Shown here in pieces: positions 29,721 to 52,494 of a stretch of DNA of 64,000 nt. Position numbers and translations under genes: made by a program. Location: assembly GCA_027459645.1 (NCBI GenBank), contig DAIDHQ010000022.1:124001-188000 (forward strand), in the 5' to 3' direction. Each line of letters opens with the position of its first letter. The first letter of the stretch is position 1. Origin of the DNA: Vulcanimicrobiota bacterium. GTDB taxonomy: Bacteria > Vulcanimicrobiota > Vulcanimicrobiia > Vulcanimicrobiales > Vulcanimicrobiaceae. The notes beneath the pieces were generated by a model. That model was not told where the DNA came from. It made no database searches and saw only the letters and a list, made by a program, of their open reading frames with translations.

Positions 29721-30518
29721 GTTTTGGTACACGACGACGTGCGCATCGACACGCGCATCGATGGTTCCGGTGACGATGCAATCGTCCTCATTCACGGTTT
29801 TCCGCTCGCGAAAGAGATATGGAGCGAGCAGATGCCGGCGCTCGCGAGATCGCATCGCGCGATCGCAATCGACTTGCGCGGCATGGGCGGTTCGAGCGTC
29901 GTCGACGGCCCGTACTTGATGGAAACGCTCGCCGGCGACGTCGCCGCGGTGATGGATCAGCTCAACGTGGAACGCGCGACGCTCGTCGGTCACTCGCTCG
30001 GCGGATATGTCGCGCTCGCGTTCGCGCGCATGTACGCCGAACGCGTCGCGCGACTCGCGCTCGTGTGCAGTCGCATCGCAGCCGACTCACCGGAGCGCGC
30101 GGCGCAACGCCGAGCGGCGGCGGACCGATTCGAACGCGACGATTCGCTCGGCGATATCGATGCAACGATAATAGCGATGGTTTCGGAAAAAACGCGACGC
30201 GGCGATCGAAAAACCCTTGAAAACATTGAAAAAATCGCTCGGCGTAACACGCCGCGCGGCCTGGCTTCGATGTTGCGCGGAATGGCGTTACGCGACGGTG
30301 CCGAGGATATCGCACCGGAGCTGGAGATGCCGGTTCTGGTCGTGGCGGGGGCGGCCGATCCGGTGGTCCCGGTGGCCGAGGCCGACGCGACGGCCGCCGC
30401 CTTTGCGCGGGGCCGGCTCGAGGTTTTGGAGGGGAGCGGTCACATCCCAATGGCCGAGACGCCCGCCTCCCTCACGGCTGTCTTGGTAAGCTTTACGAGC
30501 GGCCCCAGAGGCGCGTGA
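29715..30518 (+). CDS. Alpha/beta hydrolase
   Basis: A 267-aa protein with IHGFPLAKEIW (oxyanion region), DLRGMGGSS, nucleophile Ser94 in GHSLGG, probable acid Asp in GAADPVVPVAEA and catalytic His in GSGHIPMAE. It resembles the 3-oxoadipate enol-lactonase/haloperoxidase-like branch, but assignment to PcaD would be over-precise. It is divergent from the H1-like gene and overlaps the small membrane-protein gene by 26 bp at the 3' end. Confidence 0.83.
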   Translation: MQVLVHDDVRIDTRIDGSGDDAIVLIHGFPLAKEIWSEQMPALARSHRAIAIDLRGMGGSSVVDGPYLMETLAGDVAAVMDQLNVERATLVGHSLGGYVALAFARMYAERVARLALVCSRIAADSPERAAQRRAAADRFERDDSLGDIDATIIAMVSEKTRRGDRKTLENIEKIARRNTPRGLASMLRGMALRDGAEDIAPELEMPVLVVAGAADPVVPVAEADATAAAFARGRLEVLEGSGHIPMAETPASLTAVLVSFTSGPRGA

Positions 30519-30735
30519 TCGGGTTCAGCACCTCCCACATCGGGCGGCGGCGGATCGCACTATAGAGGAAGAGCCCGGCCAAGACGATCGCGGCGACGAT
30601 GGCCGCGATAATCACGGCATGAATGACCACGCCGACGACGATCGAGAGCAGCCAGATCAGGACCAGGGCGATCGCGATGACCGCCGTCAATTTTATAAAG
30701 GCGCCCAGGAGCGGGTTGGCCGTTTGGAGCTTCAT
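30493..30735 (-). CDS. Small membrane protein of unknown function
   Basis: An 80-aa protein from ATG 30735, which has GAGG 8 nt upstream; the frame is open back to 30801. It has two long hydrophobic segments (residues about 12-30 and 31-55) and then a basic tail (SAIRRRPMWEVLNPITRLWGRS). No family is recognised. It overlaps the convergent hydrolase gene by 26 bp. Confidence 0.65.
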   Translation of the reverse strand: MKLQTANPLLGAFIKLTAVIAIALVLIWLLSIVVGVVIHAVIIAAIVAAIVLAGLFLYSAIRRRPMWEVLNPITRLWGRS

Positions 30736-30789
30736 CTTTAATACCTCATCCCGATCTACCGATAGAGAAATAGGAGGTTTCAATCGCAG

Positions 30790-30948
30790 ATGGATTTGCA
30801 AGGCATCGCATCCGGGCTCGCCGCGAGCAGCGTCTCGAACGGCATCGCCGTGGGCGTGCTCAAGGCGCTCGACAACCTCCAGTCAGCCCAGGCGGCGGAA
30901 TTGTTTTCGTCGATCGGCTTGGGCGCCAACGTCAACACCCTCGCCTAG
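30790..30948 (+). CDS. Short YjfB-like protein (putative motility family)
   Basis: A 52-aa reading frame starting MDLQGIASGLAAS and containing VGVLKALDNLQSAQAAELF. Its layout matches the small YjfB/putative-motility-protein family (MD..ALS..LSQ....VGIAVLKKALD...QG..L). AGGAGG at 30772-30777 lies 12 nt upstream of the ATG. There are no flagellar genes in the window. It sits divergent from the small membrane protein and about 50 bp upstream of a secreted-protein gene. The family function is not established. Confidence 0.65.
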   Translation: MDLQGIASGLAASSVSNGIAVGVLKALDNLQSAQAAELFSSIGLGANVNTLA

Positions 30949-30999
30949 TACCGACACTGCTCGGAGGAGGCGTCTCCGAAATCCCGTAGGACCACGTTC

Positions 31000-31758
31000 A
31001 TGAAAGCAACAGTGTCTTTGTGCGCTGCGGCCGTTTTAGCGTTTTCCGCCGGCAGCATAGCGTTCGCACAGTCTCCCGCGCCTGCGGCCCCAGCGGGCCC
31101 CCTCCGCCATCTTGTGTATTCCTATACTTTCGGCGTCGAGACCGATCTCGAAACGCATGCATCTGGCATCGGTACGGGCGGTTCCGGTATCGCCAATAGC
31201 GAAGCCTCGCATCAAGACCAGGGCACGATCACCGTCGACGTGCTTAAAGAGGATGCGAGCAAAGGTCTCGTCGTGAAGATCAGCGAGAACTCGCAAACAA
31301 ATCGCACGGCAAAGCCTGCGACGTGCGTGGTCTACGGCACGACCGCAACGATCTGCGATCCCAACGCCGTCGTTCATCCCGAAGAGGTCGCGATTCTGCG
31401 GCTCCTCGGCGAGAACTTCGTCGATCCGGCGAAGATCGATGCGAAACAGCAATGGTCGCAAGAATCGACCAGTGCCAACGGCGACACGAAGTCCGTCTTT
31501 ACGATCGCGAAAAACGATAACGGCGTCATGACGATCAACGAAAGCCGCACCGATAGCGACAAGGTGGGTGGCCGCGATGAGACGTTCCGTACGACCGCGA
31601 CGATCGGTTACGATTATCCCAAACAGGTCATGACGTCGCTCAAGCAGTTCGGTCAGTCGCGCCAAATCCGCGGATCGAATCAGTATATGACGATGACCAC
31701 CGAGATCACGGCGCAATTGCAGACCGACTCGATGAACAAGGTCGCGCACACGCCCTAA
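31000..31758 (+). CDS. Secreted protein of unknown function
   Basis: A 252-aa protein with a clear signal peptide (MKATVSLCAAAVLAFSAGS, likely cleavage after AFAQ or AQS) and then a beta-rich polar domain with Gly/Ser-rich GIGTGGSGIANSEA at about 57-70. One Cys pair (TCVVYGTTATIC) might form a disulfide. AGGA lies 8 nt before the ATG. No recognised family. A hairpin (TCGGAG..CTCCGA, 30961-30979) lies in its short leader. Confidence 0.75.
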   Translation: MKATVSLCAAAVLAFSAGSIAFAQSPAPAAPAGPLRHLVYSYTFGVETDLETHASGIGTGGSGIANSEASHQDQGTITVDVLKEDASKGLVVKISENSQTNRTAKPATCVVYGTTATICDPNAVVHPEEVAILRLLGENFVDPAKIDAKQQWSQESTSANGDTKSVFTIAKNDNGVMTINESRTDSDKVGGRDETFRTTATIGYDYPKQVMTSLKQFGQSRQIRGSNQYMTMTTEITAQLQTDSMNKVAHTP

Positions 31759-31792
31759 GCCGCGACAACGCGAGCAAGCGGAGAGGTCATTT

Positions 31793-31820
31793 CATAGGGC
31801 GAACGTTCGTTCGCCCTATG
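31793..31820 (+). promoter_or_regulatory. Palindrome with LexA-type core covering the lhr start codon
   Basis: Two perfect 12-bp arms (CATAGGGCGAAC at 31793-31804 and GTTCGCCCTATG at 31809-31820) flank GTTC. The last three bases are the proposed lhr ATG. The core GAAC-GTTC-GTTC (31801-31812) matches GAACN4GTTC, the LexA box of Gram-positive bacteria. GGAGAGG at 31780-31786 lies 5' of the structure. As DNA it could be an SOS-type operator; as RNA it would hide the start codon. Confidence 0.6.
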
Positions 31821-34466
31821 TCTATTTTCGACGCGCTGCATCCCGAGGTCGCGCGTTGGTGCTACGAGCATCTCGCCGCGCCGACGCCGCCGCAGTGCGA
31901 CGCGCTCGTGCCCGGCTGCGAGCGCCGCAACCTGTTGATCTGCTCGCCGACCGGCACGGGGAAGACGCTTGCCGCGTTTCTCCCCATCATCTCGCGTCTC
32001 GCGGAGGCACGCGATCGCGACGCACTCTTTGCGCGAACGTTCGCGCTCTACATCTCCCCGCTGCGCGCGCTCGGTTACGACGTCGAGCACAACCTCCGCA
32101 GGCCGCTGCGCGACATGGGTCTGCTCGAGCGCCCGAATACCGAGCGTGGAAAACTCCGGCGCGGTTGCATTCGCGAACGTTTCGTACGCACCGGCGTGCG
32201 GACGAGCGACACGCCGAAAGAAGAGCGGCGCCTGATGCTTTCGCGGCCGCCGCATATTCTGGTGACGACGCCCGAGTCGCTTGCGGTCATGCTCGCGATG
32301 GACAGTTACCGGCGCACGCTGCGAGCCGTCGAGACGGTCGTGATCGACGAGGTTCACGCCCTTGCCGGCAATAAGCGGGGGTCGCAGCTCGCGCTCGCAC
32401 TCGAGTCGCTGGAAGAGCTCGTCGCCGCGCCGTTCAATCGCGTCGGCCTCTCCGCGACGGTCGAACCGCTCGAGCGGGTCGCACGGTTCGTGGCCGGCAC
32501 CGAGCGCCCGTGCGAGATCGTTGATCACCGCGGACTGCGCAGCATCCGCATCGAGATCGACGCACCTTTCGGCGGCGCGATGGCACCGCTCGAAACCGTC
32601 GCCCGGGAGGCCGTAAAGCTTTCGCGCGACGTGCGAACCTCGCTGGTCTTTACGAACGTGCGCAGCCAAGCGGAGCGCGTCGCGCATCTTATGGCGGAAG
32701 CGTCGCAAGACGAGGGCACGATCGAAGAGATCGAAGGCGAAGCGCCGCGCCGGGACATCGATCTCTCGAAAATCGGCGTACATCACAGCGCGCTCGAACG
32801 TAGCGTGCGCCATCGAGTCGAAGCGGCCTTGCGCGCGGGAACGCTCAGAACGGTCGTCTGCAGTTCGAGTTTGGAACTCGGCGTCGACATCGGTTTCATC
32901 GATCGCGTGCTGATCGTCGGCGGCGCGCGCGGCATGACGCCGGCCTTGCAGCGCATCGGCCGCGCCGGCCACCGCCCCGATGCGATTGCTTGCGGCACGA
33001 TCGTCGCGCAGGATCGCGACGACATCGTCGAAGCCGCCGCGACCAAACGCTGCATCGCCGATGGAATCATCGACGAGATCGCCGTGCCCGAAGCTCCGCT
33101 CGACGTGCTCGCGCAATGGATGACCGGCAGCGTTTGCTACGACAAGCGGATGTCGATCGACGATGTGCTGCGGATCGCCCGGCGCGCCTATCCGTACCGC
33201 GATCTCGAACGCGAAGACGCCGTTGCTTGCGCGCAGTACCTCTCGGGCGGCGGCGTCGGGCCCGACGAGGCGCACGTGCGCCGGCTCGGTTTCGAAGGCG
33301 GCGAAATCTTCGGTCTGGGCCGCGACGTGTGTGCGGCGTTCTTCGAAAACGTCGGCACCATTCCGGACGAACAGCATGTGATGGTGCGCGTACACGGAGC
33401 CGACGTGGGGCGCGTCGAGGAAGGCTTTCTCAACGAACTGCGCGTCGGAGACGTGTTCGTTCTCAACGGAAAGACGCTGCGCGTCAAAGATCTAAGCGCA
33501 ACAGGCATTACCGCCGAGCCCTTCACGGGGCGCCCCACCGTTCCGCAATGGAGCTCGCACATGAAAGGCGTGCCGCTCGCGCTCGCTCGCGAAATCACGC
33601 ACCTGCGCGTGGAAGTTGCGCGTCGTTTGCGCCGGCGCGATGCGGCGGGTGCGCTCGAGTTTTTACGTGCGCGCTACGCGCTCGAGGGAGCGGAAGCGGC
33701 GCACGTGGTGCGCTATATCGCGCAGCAACAGGCGCTCTCGGCCGTGCCGGAAGAAGGCCGTCCGGTGATCGAGATCTATCGCATGGATTCGCGCCAGACG
33801 GCGGTCTTTCACACCTGCGCGGGGCGTCGGGTGAACGAAACGTTGGCGCGTATCGTCGGCGCGCGCGTCTTTAGGAGTGCAAAAGCAAACTCGCAGATCA
33901 CGACCGACGACAACGGCTTTCTCGTGACGCTTCCACCCGGCAAACATTTACCCGACGCGGCGTGGGCGCAGATGCTCGACGCGCGCCGTTTCGATGAAGA
34001 TCTCTTGGATGGACTGCGCAGTTCGCGGCTTCTGCGCGCGTACTTCCGTTACGTCGCCAATACGGGATTACTCGTGCTCCGGCGGGCCGGCGGCCGCACG
34101 CTGCGACGCGGAACGCAAAGTTGGAATAGCGGCAAGATCTTCGATCGCGTCTTTACCCGAGACCGGCGCTTCCCGCTCTTGCGCGAAACGATTCGCACGG
34201 TGACGCGCGATCTGCTCGATGCGCCCGCGGCGCGCGCGTATCTGGAATCGATCGCCGAAGAACCGCGCGTCTTGCACCCGGCCGCGGCGTCGCCGTTTAC
34301 CTTCGGCATTATCACGTCGTCGTTCGGCGACTCGGTCGTGCTGGACGACCGCGCGAGCATGGTCGAAGCGCTTCACGATCGCGTGCTGCAACTGCTCGGC
34401 GAGCGCGCCGCCGAAGGCGAAGACCTCTCCTCCGAACCCTCGCTGCAGTTGACGTGGGGCGCGTGA
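31818..34466 (+). CDS. lhr: Lhr-type (LHR-Core) superfamily 2 DNA helicase
   Basis: An 882-aa ATP-dependent helicase. Walker A SPTGTGKT at 43-50, DEVH box at 177-180, GLSATVEPL, then the second RecA domain with GVDIGF and QRIGRAGHR, a winged-helix and an Lhr-core domain to about 850. The size equals LHR-Core proteins associated with DNA ligase, metallophosphoesterase and exonuclease genes. Such helicases translocate 3' to 5' on single-stranded DNA and unwind RNA:DNA hybrids. Its stop overlaps the metallophosphoesterase start as GTGA. The start codon lies in a perfect palindrome with a LexA-like core, suggesting damage-inducible control. Confidence 0.92.
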   Translation: MSIFDALHPEVARWCYEHLAAPTPPQCDALVPGCERRNLLICSPTGTGKTLAAFLPIISRLAEARDRDALFARTFALYISPLRALGYDVEHNLRRPLRDMGLLERPNTERGKLRRGCIRERFVRTGVRTSDTPKEERRLMLSRPPHILVTTPESLAVMLAMDSYRRTLRAVETVVIDEVHALAGNKRGSQLALALESLEELVAAPFNRVGLSATVEPLERVARFVAGTERPCEIVDHRGLRSIRIEIDAPFGGAMAPLETVAREAVKLSRDVRTSLVFTNVRSQAERVAHLMAEASQDEGTIEEIEGEAPRRDIDLSKIGVHHSALERSVRHRVEAALRAGTLRTVVCSSSLELGVDIGFIDRVLIVGGARGMTPALQRIGRAGHRPDAIACGTIVAQDRDDIVEAAATKRCIADGIIDEIAVPEAPLDVLAQWMTGSVCYDKRMSIDDVLRIARRAYPYRDLEREDAVACAQYLSGGGVGPDEAHVRRLGFEGGEIFGLGRDVCAAFFENVGTIPDEQHVMVRVHGADVGRVEEGFLNELRVGDVFVLNGKTLRVKDLSATGITAEPFTGRPTVPQWSSHMKGVPLALAREITHLRVEVARRLRRRDAAGALEFLRARYALEGAEAAHVVRYIAQQQALSAVPEEGRPVIEIYRMDSRQTAVFHTCAGRRVNETLARIVGARVFRSAKANSQITTDDNGFLVTLPPGKHLPDAAWAQMLDARRFDEDLLDGLRSSRLLRAYFRYVANTGLLVLRRAGGRTLRRGTQSWNSGKIFDRVFTRDRRFPLLRETIRTVTRDLLDAPAARAYLESIAEEPRVLHPAAASPFTFGIITSSFGDSVVLDDRASMVEALHDRVLQLLGERAAEGEDLSSEPSLQLTWGA

Positions 34467-35230
34467 GACCGCCCCGCGCATCCGCCGACGCCGTCTCGCT
34501 TTTCGAAGGCGTCGCCGCGCTGCCGGGAGGGTTGCTGTGGCTGGAGCGCACGCAAACCTTGGTTGCTGCCGACGCGCATTTGGCGTACGAAGACGTGATC
34601 GGCGGCGCGCTTCCGTTGTGGAGTACGGCCGAAAGCACGCACGCGCTGCTGCTGCTGATTCGGCGCATGCACGCGCGCGAGCTCGTGCTGCTCGGCGACG
34701 TGATCCACGGCAGCCGCATGAGCGACGGCGCCGCGTCGGCGGTGAAAGCGGCGCTCGAACTGCTGCGCGCGCAGTGCGTGGTGACGCTGGTTGCAGGCAA
34801 TCACGAAGGGCGTTCGCGCGGCAGCGCCGTGCTGGGCGATACCGAAGAAGCGATCGAACGCGATGGCTGGATCCTGCTGCACGGCGACGAACCGGTGGGC
34901 GCGCCGCGGTGTATCGTCGGACATCTGCATCCGAGTCTGCCGCTGGGCGGCGGTGCGAGCGTTCCCGTGTTTCTCGCCGCGCCGCATCTGATCGTGGTGC
35001 CCGCGCTGACCCCGTATTCAAGCGGTCTCAACGTACTCTCGTCCGATTGCACGGCGGCGCTTCGTGCGTTTGGTGAGGGGCACGGATTCGAGGTCGTCGC
35101 GTCGACGGAAGAGCGCGTCTTTCCCTTCGGTTCGCTCGCTACATTGCGCGGTGCGCTTCGAGGCGCGAATCCGGGCCGTTTGCCGCCGCACCTTCGGCGG
35201 CGGCGCCTGCGCGGTGACGATTCAGCTTAG
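34463..35230 (+). CDS. pdeM: Ligase-associated metallophosphoesterase (PdeM/MPE-like)
   Basis: A 255-aa calcineurin-like phosphoesterase from GTG 34463, overlapping the lhr stop as GTGA; a GTG at 34454 is an alternative. Metal-site motifs are in order: DAHL at 37-40, GDVIH at 78-82, GNHE at 112-115 and GHLHP at 153-157. This matches the DNA-ligase-associated MPE family, manganese-dependent DNA nucleases linked with LHR-Core helicase, Exo and Lig. The C terminus is very basic (RRRRLR), which could help DNA binding. Its 3' end overlaps the convergent NUDIX gene by 9 bp. Confidence 0.9.
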   Translation: MRPPRASADAVSLFEGVAALPGGLLWLERTQTLVAADAHLAYEDVIGGALPLWSTAESTHALLLLIRRMHARELVLLGDVIHGSRMSDGAASAVKAALELLRAQCVVTLVAGNHEGRSRGSAVLGDTEEAIERDGWILLHGDEPVGAPRCIVGHLHPSLPLGGGASVPVFLAAPHLIVVPALTPYSSGLNVLSSDCTAALRAFGEGHGFEVVASTEERVFPFGSLATLRGALRGANPGRLPPHLRRRRLRGDDSA

Positions 35231-40359: not shown

Positions 40360-40385
40360 AGTCCTCGGCGTAAACGCCGAGGACT
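40360..40385. terminator. Bidirectional-type hairpin terminator
   Basis: AGTCCTCGGCG (40360-40370) and CGCCGAGGACT (40375-40385) form a perfect 11-bp stem with a TAAA loop. On the plus strand it is followed by CGTCATTTT, and on the minus strand by CTTCTTCG. It separates the 35.8-40.3 kb operon from the convergent lipoprotein gene and can serve both. Confidence 0.8.
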
Positions 40386-43803: not shown

Positions 43804-43829
43804 AAGGGCCGCTCGTTCGAGCGGCCCTT
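43804..43829 (+). terminator. Intrinsic terminator after the enoyl-CoA hydratase gene
   Basis: AAGGGCCGCTCG (43804-43815) and CGAGCGGCCCTT (43818-43829) are perfect inverted repeats. On the plus strand they are followed by TGTGTTT. The structure lies 22 nt after the hydratase stop and 14 nt before the convergent serine hydrolase stop at 43843, so it probably serves both. Confidence 0.8.
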
Positions 43830-47648: not shown

Positions 47649-49324
47649 AGGCCTTCCCGTTCGAGCATCGCGGCGTAAATCGCGTCGACGTCGGCGACGG
47701 TGTCGATCTGCGACACCGGCTTGTCGTCGCGTACCCGCACGATGCGAGGAAACCGCAAGGCATACCCGCTCTGATGCAGATCGCTGCGTTGAACGATATC
47801 GAACGCAACCTCCAGCACGATTGCCGGCTCCACCTCGAACCGGCGCCGTGTCGCATCTTCCGGCCGCAACGGATGGGCGAGAAACCACGTGGTGAGTTCG
47901 CCGATCTCGGCGTCCGTCAACCCGGTGTAGGCCTTGCCGATGGTCAGCAGATTTCCTTCGCCGTCCTGCACCGCGAACGTGTAATCGGAGAGCATCTTCG
48001 CGCGTTTTCCATGCCCCCATTCGACCGCCACAACCACCACGTCGAGGGTGCTCAACTCTTTCTTGAGCTTGAGCCACCATTTGCCGCGACGACCGGGAAC
48101 GTAGGGCGCATCGACGCGCTTGAGCATCAACCCTTCGTTGCCGCGCTCGCGAGCGGCGCCGAACCGCTCGTTGATCGCCGTTCCTTCGGCCCCCGCGTCG
48201 AGCGTGTCGAACGGTGCGGTCACGATGCGTTCGTTTGGCAGCAGCACGCCGGCCAAGCGCCGGCGGCGTTCTGCGAGCGGTTCGTCGATCAAGAACTCGT
48301 CGTCGATCGCGATCGCGTCAAAGACCACATACTGCAGCGGGACGCCTTCGAGCAACGACGGATCGATTTCTTTGCGTTGCAGGCGTGCTTGCAGGATACG
48401 AAACGGCAACGCTTTGCCGTCGCGCGAGGCGATGATCTCACCGTCGAGGATCAGCCGGTGCCGTTGCGAGCGGAGTGCCTCGGCGATCTCGGGATACGAG
48501 TGGGTGACCTCGTTGAAGTTTCGCGAATACAGCGTGACGATGCCGCCGTCCACGTGGGCTTGCGCGCGTATGCCGTCGTACTTGTCTTCGACGAACCAGG
48601 CTTCGCCGTCCAATTCGCGATAGGATTCGCCGAACGGAATCGGCGATGCGAGCATGAAGCCGATGGGCGAGCCGTACGCGACGTGGATTTCGTCGAGCCG
48701 GTGGTGTTTTGCCGCGACGGCCACTTCACCGGCGTCGCCGGATGCCATGATCGCGCGATGGATCTCGCGATGCGTACGCTCGAATGCGGCCGCAATGGCG
48801 TCGTGGATCAATCCCTCGCGTAACCCGATGCGAAGATCGCCCGTGACGATCTTGATCACGTACGTCGCCTCCAGCGGGTCGCTGCACGCCCGCAAGATGC
48901 GCTCCAAAATCGCTTCGCGCGTCTTTCCCGCGTTTTTTCCGGACGCGCCGGCAATCTGCATGAAGAGTCCGTCGAGGAGCGCCGGCGTGAGCGTCTCTGC
49001 ACCGAACAGCGAAAGATCGGTTCCCGGTCGCGCGAGCGGACCCAGTGCCGCGCCCAGATCGCCCGTCTCGCGATAGCGGCCCGAGAGCGCTGCGTCGGTG
49101 AAGCCCCACGCGCGTTTCGCGGCCGAGACGATCGCACGGGCGCCGATATTGAGGCTGCGCTGGTCGCGAGCGGCGAACGGATTCCCGGTGAAGAAGCGCG
49201 CGGCCGCCTGCAGATCGGGGTCGTCGAGTTCGCGCAGGTACTCGGCGATCAGCGCGACTTTTTCGAGTTTTCCGCTGCGTGCCGCGACGGCGTTCGCGAC
49301 ATAGGCGAAGCGGCGCATCCCCAT
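47645..49324 (-). CDS. lig: ATP-dependent DNA ligase (ligase of the LHR/MPE/Exo/Lig set)
   Basis: A 559-aa ligase: N-terminal DNA-binding domain (residues 1 to about 210), nucleotidyltransferase domain with adenylated Lys248 in EDKYDGIRAQ, ILDGEI, the EGLMLKR motif and WLKLK, then an OB-fold to the C terminus. The length and layout match the bacterial ligases found with LHR-Core, MPE and Exo. It seals DNA nicks with ATP and works beside the NAD-dependent replicative LigA. Here it is separated from lhr-pdeM by 12 kb and from exo by 2 kb. The ATG at 49324 may be replaced by that at 49318. Confidence 0.94.
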   Translation of the reverse strand: MGMRRFAYVANAVAARSGKLEKVALIAEYLRELDDPDLQAAARFFTGNPFAARDQRSLNIGARAIVSAAKRAWGFTDAALSGRYRETGDLGAALGPLARPGTDLSLFGAETLTPALLDGLFMQIAGASGKNAGKTREAILERILRACSDPLEATYVIKIVTGDLRIGLREGLIHDAIAAAFERTHREIHRAIMASGDAGEVAVAAKHHRLDEIHVAYGSPIGFMLASPIPFGESYRELDGEAWFVEDKYDGIRAQAHVDGGIVTLYSRNFNEVTHSYPEIAEALRSQRHRLILDGEIIASRDGKALPFRILQARLQRKEIDPSLLEGVPLQYVVFDAIAIDDEFLIDEPLAERRRRLAGVLLPNERIVTAPFDTLDAGAEGTAINERFGAARERGNEGLMLKRVDAPYVPGRRGKWWLKLKKELSTLDVVVVAVEWGHGKRAKMLSDYTFAVQDGEGNLLTIGKAYTGLTDAEIGELTTWFLAHPLRPEDATRRRFEVEPAIVLEVAFDIVQRSDLHQSGYALRFPRIVRVRDDKPVSQIDTVADVDAIYAAMLEREGL

Positions 49325-51365: not shown

Positions 51366-52388
51366 TCAGAAGAGGGTGAGCTGGGCGTTCTCTTCGAGGT
51401 ATTCGGCGTCGATGCCGAGCGCGCGAAGGCGGTAGACGAAGTCGCGCCACCCGTGGTTCAGCAGCACTTTCTTCGGCGCGGCCAGTTCGATGTAGCGCAG
51501 CAGCGAGGGATAGTCGGCGTGGTCCGAGAGGGCGAAGCCGCGCTGCGTTCCGTAGCGAAAGAGCGCGCCGCGGTCGAGCGACCACCCCGTGAGCACGGCC
51601 GTTCGAACCTCCCGGTCGCGCAGCGCTTTCGGGAGCGCCTTACCGCCCGGCGGCCACACCAGCGCGCTCGTGACGTCGAAATCGTCGGCGTGATAGCGCT
51701 TGTACGGCGGCATCGAAACGCCGCACGCTTCGTAGACTGCCGTGATCGTGTCGACGGCGCCGTGCACCGTGATCGGGATGCTGGCATTGCCGAGGATCGC
51801 GATCGCTTCTTGTGCCTTGCCGAGCGAATAGGCGAAGAAGACCGGAACGGCGCCGGCCTCCAGCGTCTCGCGAGCGAAGGCGACCATCGATGCCGCAACC
51901 TCCTCGCGCGGCGGGAACGCGTACTGCGGCCTTCCGTACGTGCACTCCATCAGCAACACGTCGCAGCGTTTGACTTCCGGCGGCTCCGCGGTGTACGACG
52001 GCGCGAGCTTGAAGTCGCCCGTGTAGACGAACGCGCCGCTCTCGCCTTCGATCAAGAGTTGCGAACTGCCCAGCACGTGACCGGCCGAAAAGAGCGTCAA
52101 GCGGTGTTCGCCTTCCGACCACGGTTCGTTGAAACGATGTTCTTCGAACGAGACGTCGACGCGCGGCTTCTCTTGGCGCGGAAGCAGCGAGAGCTGCGGC
52201 GCCGATTCCCGGCGGCGCGAGAAGCGCGCGCGACAGATCGCGGCGGTGTTCGGCGTCGTGACGACGACGCGGTGCTCGCGTGCGTGGTCGCTGTGCCCGT
52301 GTGAGACATAGCAGCGCTCGCGCGTGCGCATGCTGTCAATCCAAAGATCGAGCGCGTCGACGTAGAGCGACTTTCCGGCCAGGCTGAA
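51366..52388 (-). CDS. Ligase-associated MBL/beta-CASP DNA exonuclease (Exo)
   Basis: About 340 aa from GTG 52388, which has AAGGGAG 8 nt upstream. An ATG at 52496 would add 36 residues, overlapping cysK. The metallo-beta-lactamase HSHGHSDHA-type motif reads SHGHSDHA, followed by [22 protein letters not shown], a beta-CASP insertion and a late LSDHADYP. This matches the SNM1-like exonuclease of the LHR/MPE/Exo/Lig set, which trims DNA ends. The last five residues are QLTLF, matching the bacterial sliding-clamp-binding consensus. A weak hairpin lies downstream (51323-51353). Confidence 0.87.
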
Positions 52389-52494
52389 CACGGCACCGCT
52401 CCCTTCGTCGCCCTCGGGTGGCTGCCTGGCAGGGCAAGCCGCGTCCCAAGAGGGCGCAACGCGCCGGCTGCTGGAAAGGGTTATGTCATCCATC

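Follow-up and report, generated by a model that had tools for sequence, protein, structure and literature searches.

The question raised by this locus is why a perfect palindrome should end on the start codon of lhr, a helicase gene. Within the window, by which we mean the whole stretch of 64,000 nucleotides that was analysed, part of a genome of 3.14 Mb in 47 contigs, direct reading of positions 31793–31820 gives CATAGGGCGAAC-GTTC-GTTCGCCCTATG, two perfectly matched 12-base arms around a GTTC loop. The last three bases of the palindrome (31818–31820) are the ATG of lhr, and the earlier note had described both points exactly. We conclude that the palindrome is very probably (about 90%) the LexA operator of an operon formed by lhr and the metallophosphoesterase (MPE) gene behind it, in an uncultured Eremiobacterota bacterium. 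The LexA-box reading of the core, already proposed in that note, is supported at the level of sequence by the box itself, by its match to the boxes of the lexA, recA and imuA regions and by its conservation at lhr; from these we infer binding, repression and induction. The features at the locus are:

31000–31758, plus strand: upstream open reading frame of 252 amino acids, on the same strand as lhr, ending 34 nt 5′ of the palindrome
31780–31786, plus strand: purine-rich GGAGAGG, 31 nt before the lhr ATG
31793–31799, plus strand: left outer arm of the palindrome, CATAGGG, outside the box
31800–31813, no strand assigned: predicted SOS (LexA) box CGAACGTTCGTTCG, a 10/10 match to CGAACN4GTTCG with an R..Y centre
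31814–31820, plus strand: right outer arm, CCCTATG, which includes the lhr start codon
31818–34466, plus strand: lhr, a DEAD/DEAH helicase of the Lhr-Core type (882 amino acids), assigned by Pfam, NCBIfam and solved-structure matches
34454–35230, plus strand: partner metallophosphoesterase (MPE/PdeM-like, 258 amino acids; TIGR04123), overlapping the end of lhr

In its frame, no earlier start codon lies between the preceding stop and the lhr ATG, and the protein carries the Pfam domains DEAD, Helicase_C, WH_Lhr and DEAD_assoc. It resembles the solved helicase 5v9x (E 2.7e-97) as well as 7lhl, and its nearest named records are from Candidatus Eremiobacterota or Eremiobacteria. The helicase domains, the winged helix, domain 4 and an MPE-like next gene are those of Lhr-Core, with both proteins under their NCBIfam cut-offs (465 bits against 850 for lhr and TIGR04121; 86.5 bits against 150 for the MPE-like protein and TIGR04123). 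The upstream open reading frame has no Pfam match.

In the window, GAACN4GTTC alone is about as frequent as chance predicts, at 2 sites against 1.67 expected. Across the 3.14-Mb genome the 14-mer CGAACN4GTTCG is enriched: it has 27 sites and the reversed pattern 6. Perfect hairpins with arms of at least 12 and a loop of 3–8 number 1 in the window against 0.25 expected from 20 Markov resamples; this one is the longest perfect short-loop hairpin there. Two more perfect hairpins, each with 11-base arms and a 4-base loop, lie at 40360–40385 and 43804–43829. Because the palindrome sequence, AGGGCGAAC...TTCGCCC, occurs only once in the genome, a dispersed repeat or mobile element was ruled out. A known RNA family was rejected as well: two Rfam matches, far below their gathering scores, were taken as chance.

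The genome encodes a single LexA above the family cut-off (TIGR00498, 227 bits against 110.95), whose PF01726 score of 90.9 bits is by far the best LexA domain score in the genome. Boxes were scored as matches out of 10 to CGAACN4GTTCG. The genome's own lexA promoter holds three CRAACN4GTTYG boxes, each 9/10. The lexA gene was located in 26 of the 27 genomes searched, and all 26 promoters have two to four boxes of at least 9/10 within 300 nt; shuffled stretches, which keep base composition only, contain such a site in at most 2%. The recA region is boxed in 12/12 genomes (10/10 in 11 of them, 9/10 in L209), mostly about 1.07 kb upstream of recA and before the preceding gene, which in this genome encodes an FtsY-type SRP GTPase. 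The lexA and recA regions thus have the same box as lhr, which the earlier note had asked to see. It had also looked to the mutagenesis genes, and imuA is boxed in six of six genomes; the box has TTGACA before it and a −10-like hexamer after it, and the start codon lies 16–17 nt downstream. The expected box at uvrA is absent as a rule (10/10 in one genome of 12, L221, about 335 nt upstream), and the regulon therefore departs from the earlier guess for this gene. Boxes at lexA, the recA region, imuA and other repair genes indicate that the lineage uses a box of the CGAACN4GTTCG type.

Most sites of this regulon have a purine-N-N-pyrimidine (R..Y) centre. The recA-region box has AGGA/TCCT instead in most genomes, and a few other sites are likewise not R..Y. 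Of the sites in the genome studied here, 9 of the 11 with an R..Y centre are intergenic, against 4 of the 16 others (p 0.006, a post hoc test with gene calls from a simple codon-usage script and no gene finder).

The methylpurine glycosylase operon and an Rv2578c-like radical SAM gene have their boxes arranged as at imuA, the latter with a weaker −35; in L120 the radical SAM gene starts directly at the box. The boxed glycosylase operon is headed in this genome by a 132-amino-acid open reading frame (L022, 4029–4427) with a near-consensus promoter, an apparently leaderless start and no NCBIfam match, and related open reading frames stand behind the box at the orthologues in L129, L149 and L157. 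A gene for a PAS-domain histidine kinase has an SOS-type box 38–59 nt upstream in four genomes (L020, L145, L151 and L156), which would tie a two-component sensor to the damage response. A boxed class II ribonucleotide reductase gene (L015, 1–3972, minus strand; G000, contig C8) carries an intein-like insert with LAGLIDADG_3 and Intein_splicing Pfam matches, the Intein_splicing match lying just below its cut-off.

Conservation of the box at lhr itself had also been proposed as a check, and it extends to close and more distant orthologues. A perfect CGAACRNNYGTTCG (a 10/10 box) lies at most 100 nt upstream of the projected lhr start in 20 of 33 loci, whereas control stretches of the lhr loci hold a 10/10 site in 5/1480 and a site of at least 9/10 in 35/1480 (32/1553 with a narrower exclusion). 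In the remaining 13 of the 33, these 100 nt contain no box. All 20 boxed loci have the R..Y centre seen in most lexA boxes, and the distance from box to start is 1–6 nt in 15, 17–19 nt in four and 53 nt in one. Since the N4 and the flanks vary among lhr loci, it is the box that is conserved and not its neighbourhood. The count draws on 30 whole-genome loci, the best-scoring of 97 genomes with any match, and includes the near-duplicate pair L067/L075, identical in box and flanks; the named assemblies L074, L075 and L077 may duplicate genomes already in the set. L076, the fourth named locus, whose gene start is missing, and L042–L045, which are paralogues or weak matches, were left out.

Two further members of the same repair set lie downstream in the window:

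48062–48655, minus strand: ATP-dependent DNA ligase domain (PF01068), between lhr and the exonuclease gene
51366–52391, minus strand: exonuclease gene of the ligase-associated type, about 17 kb downstream of lhr; its orthologues are boxed, its own box is lost

Orthologues of the exonuclease gene were examined in 30 of 47 matching genomes. A 10/10 box is present in 18 of the 30, 15 of these 2–8 nt before the start codon, and a box of at least 9/10 in 22; the respective control counts are 0/937 and 11/937. The orthologue in G064 scores 206 bits against TIGR04122, below the cut-off of 325. The exonuclease box is lost in both g1 genomes (the one studied here, and G001, L166) and in the g32 genomes examined. 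In genus g1, then, the start-abutting box of the exonuclease gene is gone and that of lhr is kept, and in the genome studied here enlarged. Among 99 family genomes, a close lhr occurs in 40, the exonuclease in 47 and both in 37, as compiled from two lists. In most of the nine genomes in which it was searched for, a ligase domain shares the contig of the exonuclease gene, and the ligase loci that were read have no 10/10 box.

Boxes at imuA, the glycosylase operon and most of the radical SAM genes take up the spacer of the promoter, with the start codon 13–17 nt beyond, an arrangement that would fit leaderless messages. The lexA mRNA of Mycobacterium tuberculosis is reported to be leaderless (PMC2897130). 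The boxes of lhr and the exonuclease gene lie right against the start codon, with no −35/−10 seen around them. No sigma-70-like promoter was found at 30500–32500 or at a fixed offset in lhr orthologues, and no shared promoter emerged from the sites that had sufficient flanking sequence and a box at most 60 nt away, 18 at lhr and 17 at the exonuclease gene. Flanks without a sigma-70-like −35/−10 show no evident way for LexA to block transcription at lhr. If the lhr promoter lies upstream, as it may, the box would be transcribed into the leader.

The ribosome-site-like GGAGAGG that had been pointed out 5′ of the hairpin is indeed there, at 31780–31786, but relatives do not keep that sequence; several of them have a purine-rich stretch some 30 nt upstream, without one common motif. 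At its distance from the ATG, GGAGAGG could serve as a normal ribosome site only with the hairpin bridging the gap, and a bridged site (GGAGAGG, hairpin, ATG) was set aside because the arms of the palindrome pair the ATG itself.

The outer arms call for an explanation of their own. As RNA, the 28-mer has a predicted folding energy of −20.4 kcal/mol (z −7.6). In the six near lhr loci (g1, g31 and g7) the arms comprise 12, 9, 14, 13, 15 and 14 pairs, the third locus including two U-G pairs, one internal and one terminal, whereas none of 70 other boxes in those genomes exceeds 9; long outer arms occur only at lhr of these groups. In this small set of six related sequences, 95% of cells are paired and both partners vary at 4 of 13 pairs, a value reached by 13 of 500 shuffles that leave relatedness in. 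In five of the six loci, predicted folds pair the start codon with probability 1.0 at z −3.2 to −4.5, and stable fold and covariation together fit a hairpin that could hide the start codon. The exception is G001, the closest relative and of the same genus, whose arms reach 9 and whose start codon is mostly unpaired (fold z −0.03), so that the proposed burial of the start codon in mRNA is consistent with the predicted folds of five near loci and not with that of the sixth. LexA leaves unexplained why outer arms occur at lhr alone, with covariation between them and the start codon paired in five loci of six; they may reflect selection for an mRNA hairpin, symmetric mutation or a combination of the two.

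It is possible, if short of an even bet, that the arms form a functional RNA hairpin hiding the lhr AUG in read-through transcripts or in all lhr mRNA, giving double control; this adds to the LexA operator and does not replace it. The arm lengths, covariation and paired start codons argue for such a hairpin, as does the outer left arm, with 88–100% identity among four g31/g7 loci and only 15–55% in the 20 nt that precede it. G001 argues against it, as do the exonuclease boxes, which abut the start codon without long arms, and the g32 lhr boxes, which also lack them. On balance we think it unlikely that the perfect arms are a by-product without use, made by template switching during replication that copies one arm onto the other. 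Such copying, known from quasipalindrome mutation, leaves symmetric changes, and symmetric changes are what the loci show, including arms one base shorter on both sides in this genome than in g31. It does not, however, predict the constancy of the outer-arm sequence between g31 and g7, nor that the 70 other boxes never exceed arms of 9.

A role for the hairpin as intrinsic terminator, ending transcription of the upstream gene, is highly improbable, even though a loose terminator scan lists it with 12 pairs and the tail TCTATTTTCG. The T-rich tail is lhr coding sequence, so that termination would cut off lhr itself; orthologues without the arms still keep the box; and in those with arms the sequences after the ATG differ (TCGTTCTT, TCCTTTGC, ACAGTTTT and GATAGCCC). 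The terminator was rejected because relatives do not keep the T-rich tail. We give hardly any credence to the dyad as the operator of another regulator with a coincidental LexA match: the outer arms do extend beyond a LexA box, but the genomes concerned also carry the motif in their lexA, recA and imuA regions. Against LexA control itself weigh the lhr loci lacking a box within 100 nt, the loss of this genome's own exonuclease box, and flanks without the promoter elements found at imuA and the glycosylase operon.

On the preferred reading, LexA in undamaged cells would sit on 31800–31813, directly before the lhr start, and keep the lhr–MPE operon low; upon DNA damage, RecA-stimulated self-cleavage of LexA would free the operon. 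In g1, g31 and g7, the operator appears extended outwards, such that a transcript arriving from upstream would fold the lhr start into the hairpin, a possible second, translational brake. Two locks in series, the LexA operator acting as DNA and the outer arms shutting the lhr start as mRNA, are a tentative proposal that we judge somewhat improbable; under it, leaky or read-through transcripts would yield little helicase outside the damage response.

The LexA box of Gram-positive bacteria (Bacillus, mycobacteria) is GAACN4GTTC. The box described here has the same core and spacing and the same placement at lexA, recA and repair genes, and differs in its Eremiobacterota host, in often abutting the start of lhr or the exonuclease gene and in the outer arms at lhr. 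LexA motifs are reported to differ widely between phyla (PMC8565304). In Myxococcus xanthus, lhr is reported to be negatively regulated by LexA (PMC12288472); the likeness, predicted here, is one of LexA control, drawn from that report of regulation and across different phyla. The mycobacterial lhr-nei2 operon is described in PMC11323726 as damage-inducible but LexA-independent and PafBC-driven. It shares with the present locus the Lhr-Core domain set and, if our reading holds, a damage-inducible lhr operon, and differs in its LexA independence, its partner Nei2 and its long-form helicase.

Bacterial Lhr-Core in an MPE neighbourhood has been described (PMC8301817). The present genes resemble the ligase-associated set (TIGR04121–04123) in that the helicase adjoins the MPE, with ligase and exonuclease within about 20 kb, and differ in their NCBIfam scores, below the cut-offs for all three of helicase, MPE and exonuclease, and in being scattered over about 20 kb. 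We found no report on LexA in Eremiobacterota in the open-licence literature, which on an SOS response in this group gave only one paper, on airborne viruses. The analysis yields a computed SOS regulon for an Eremiobacterota lineage, comprising lexA, the recA region, imuAB, the class II ribonucleotide reductase, the methylpurine glycosylase operon, the Rv2578c-like radical SAM gene, the PAS kinase, lhr–MPE and the exonuclease. It would tie a little-understood ligase-associated repair set (Lhr-Core, MPE and exonuclease) to LexA in this lineage, and, if the outer arms act in mRNA, the palindrome would be a compact operator doubling as a translational lock.
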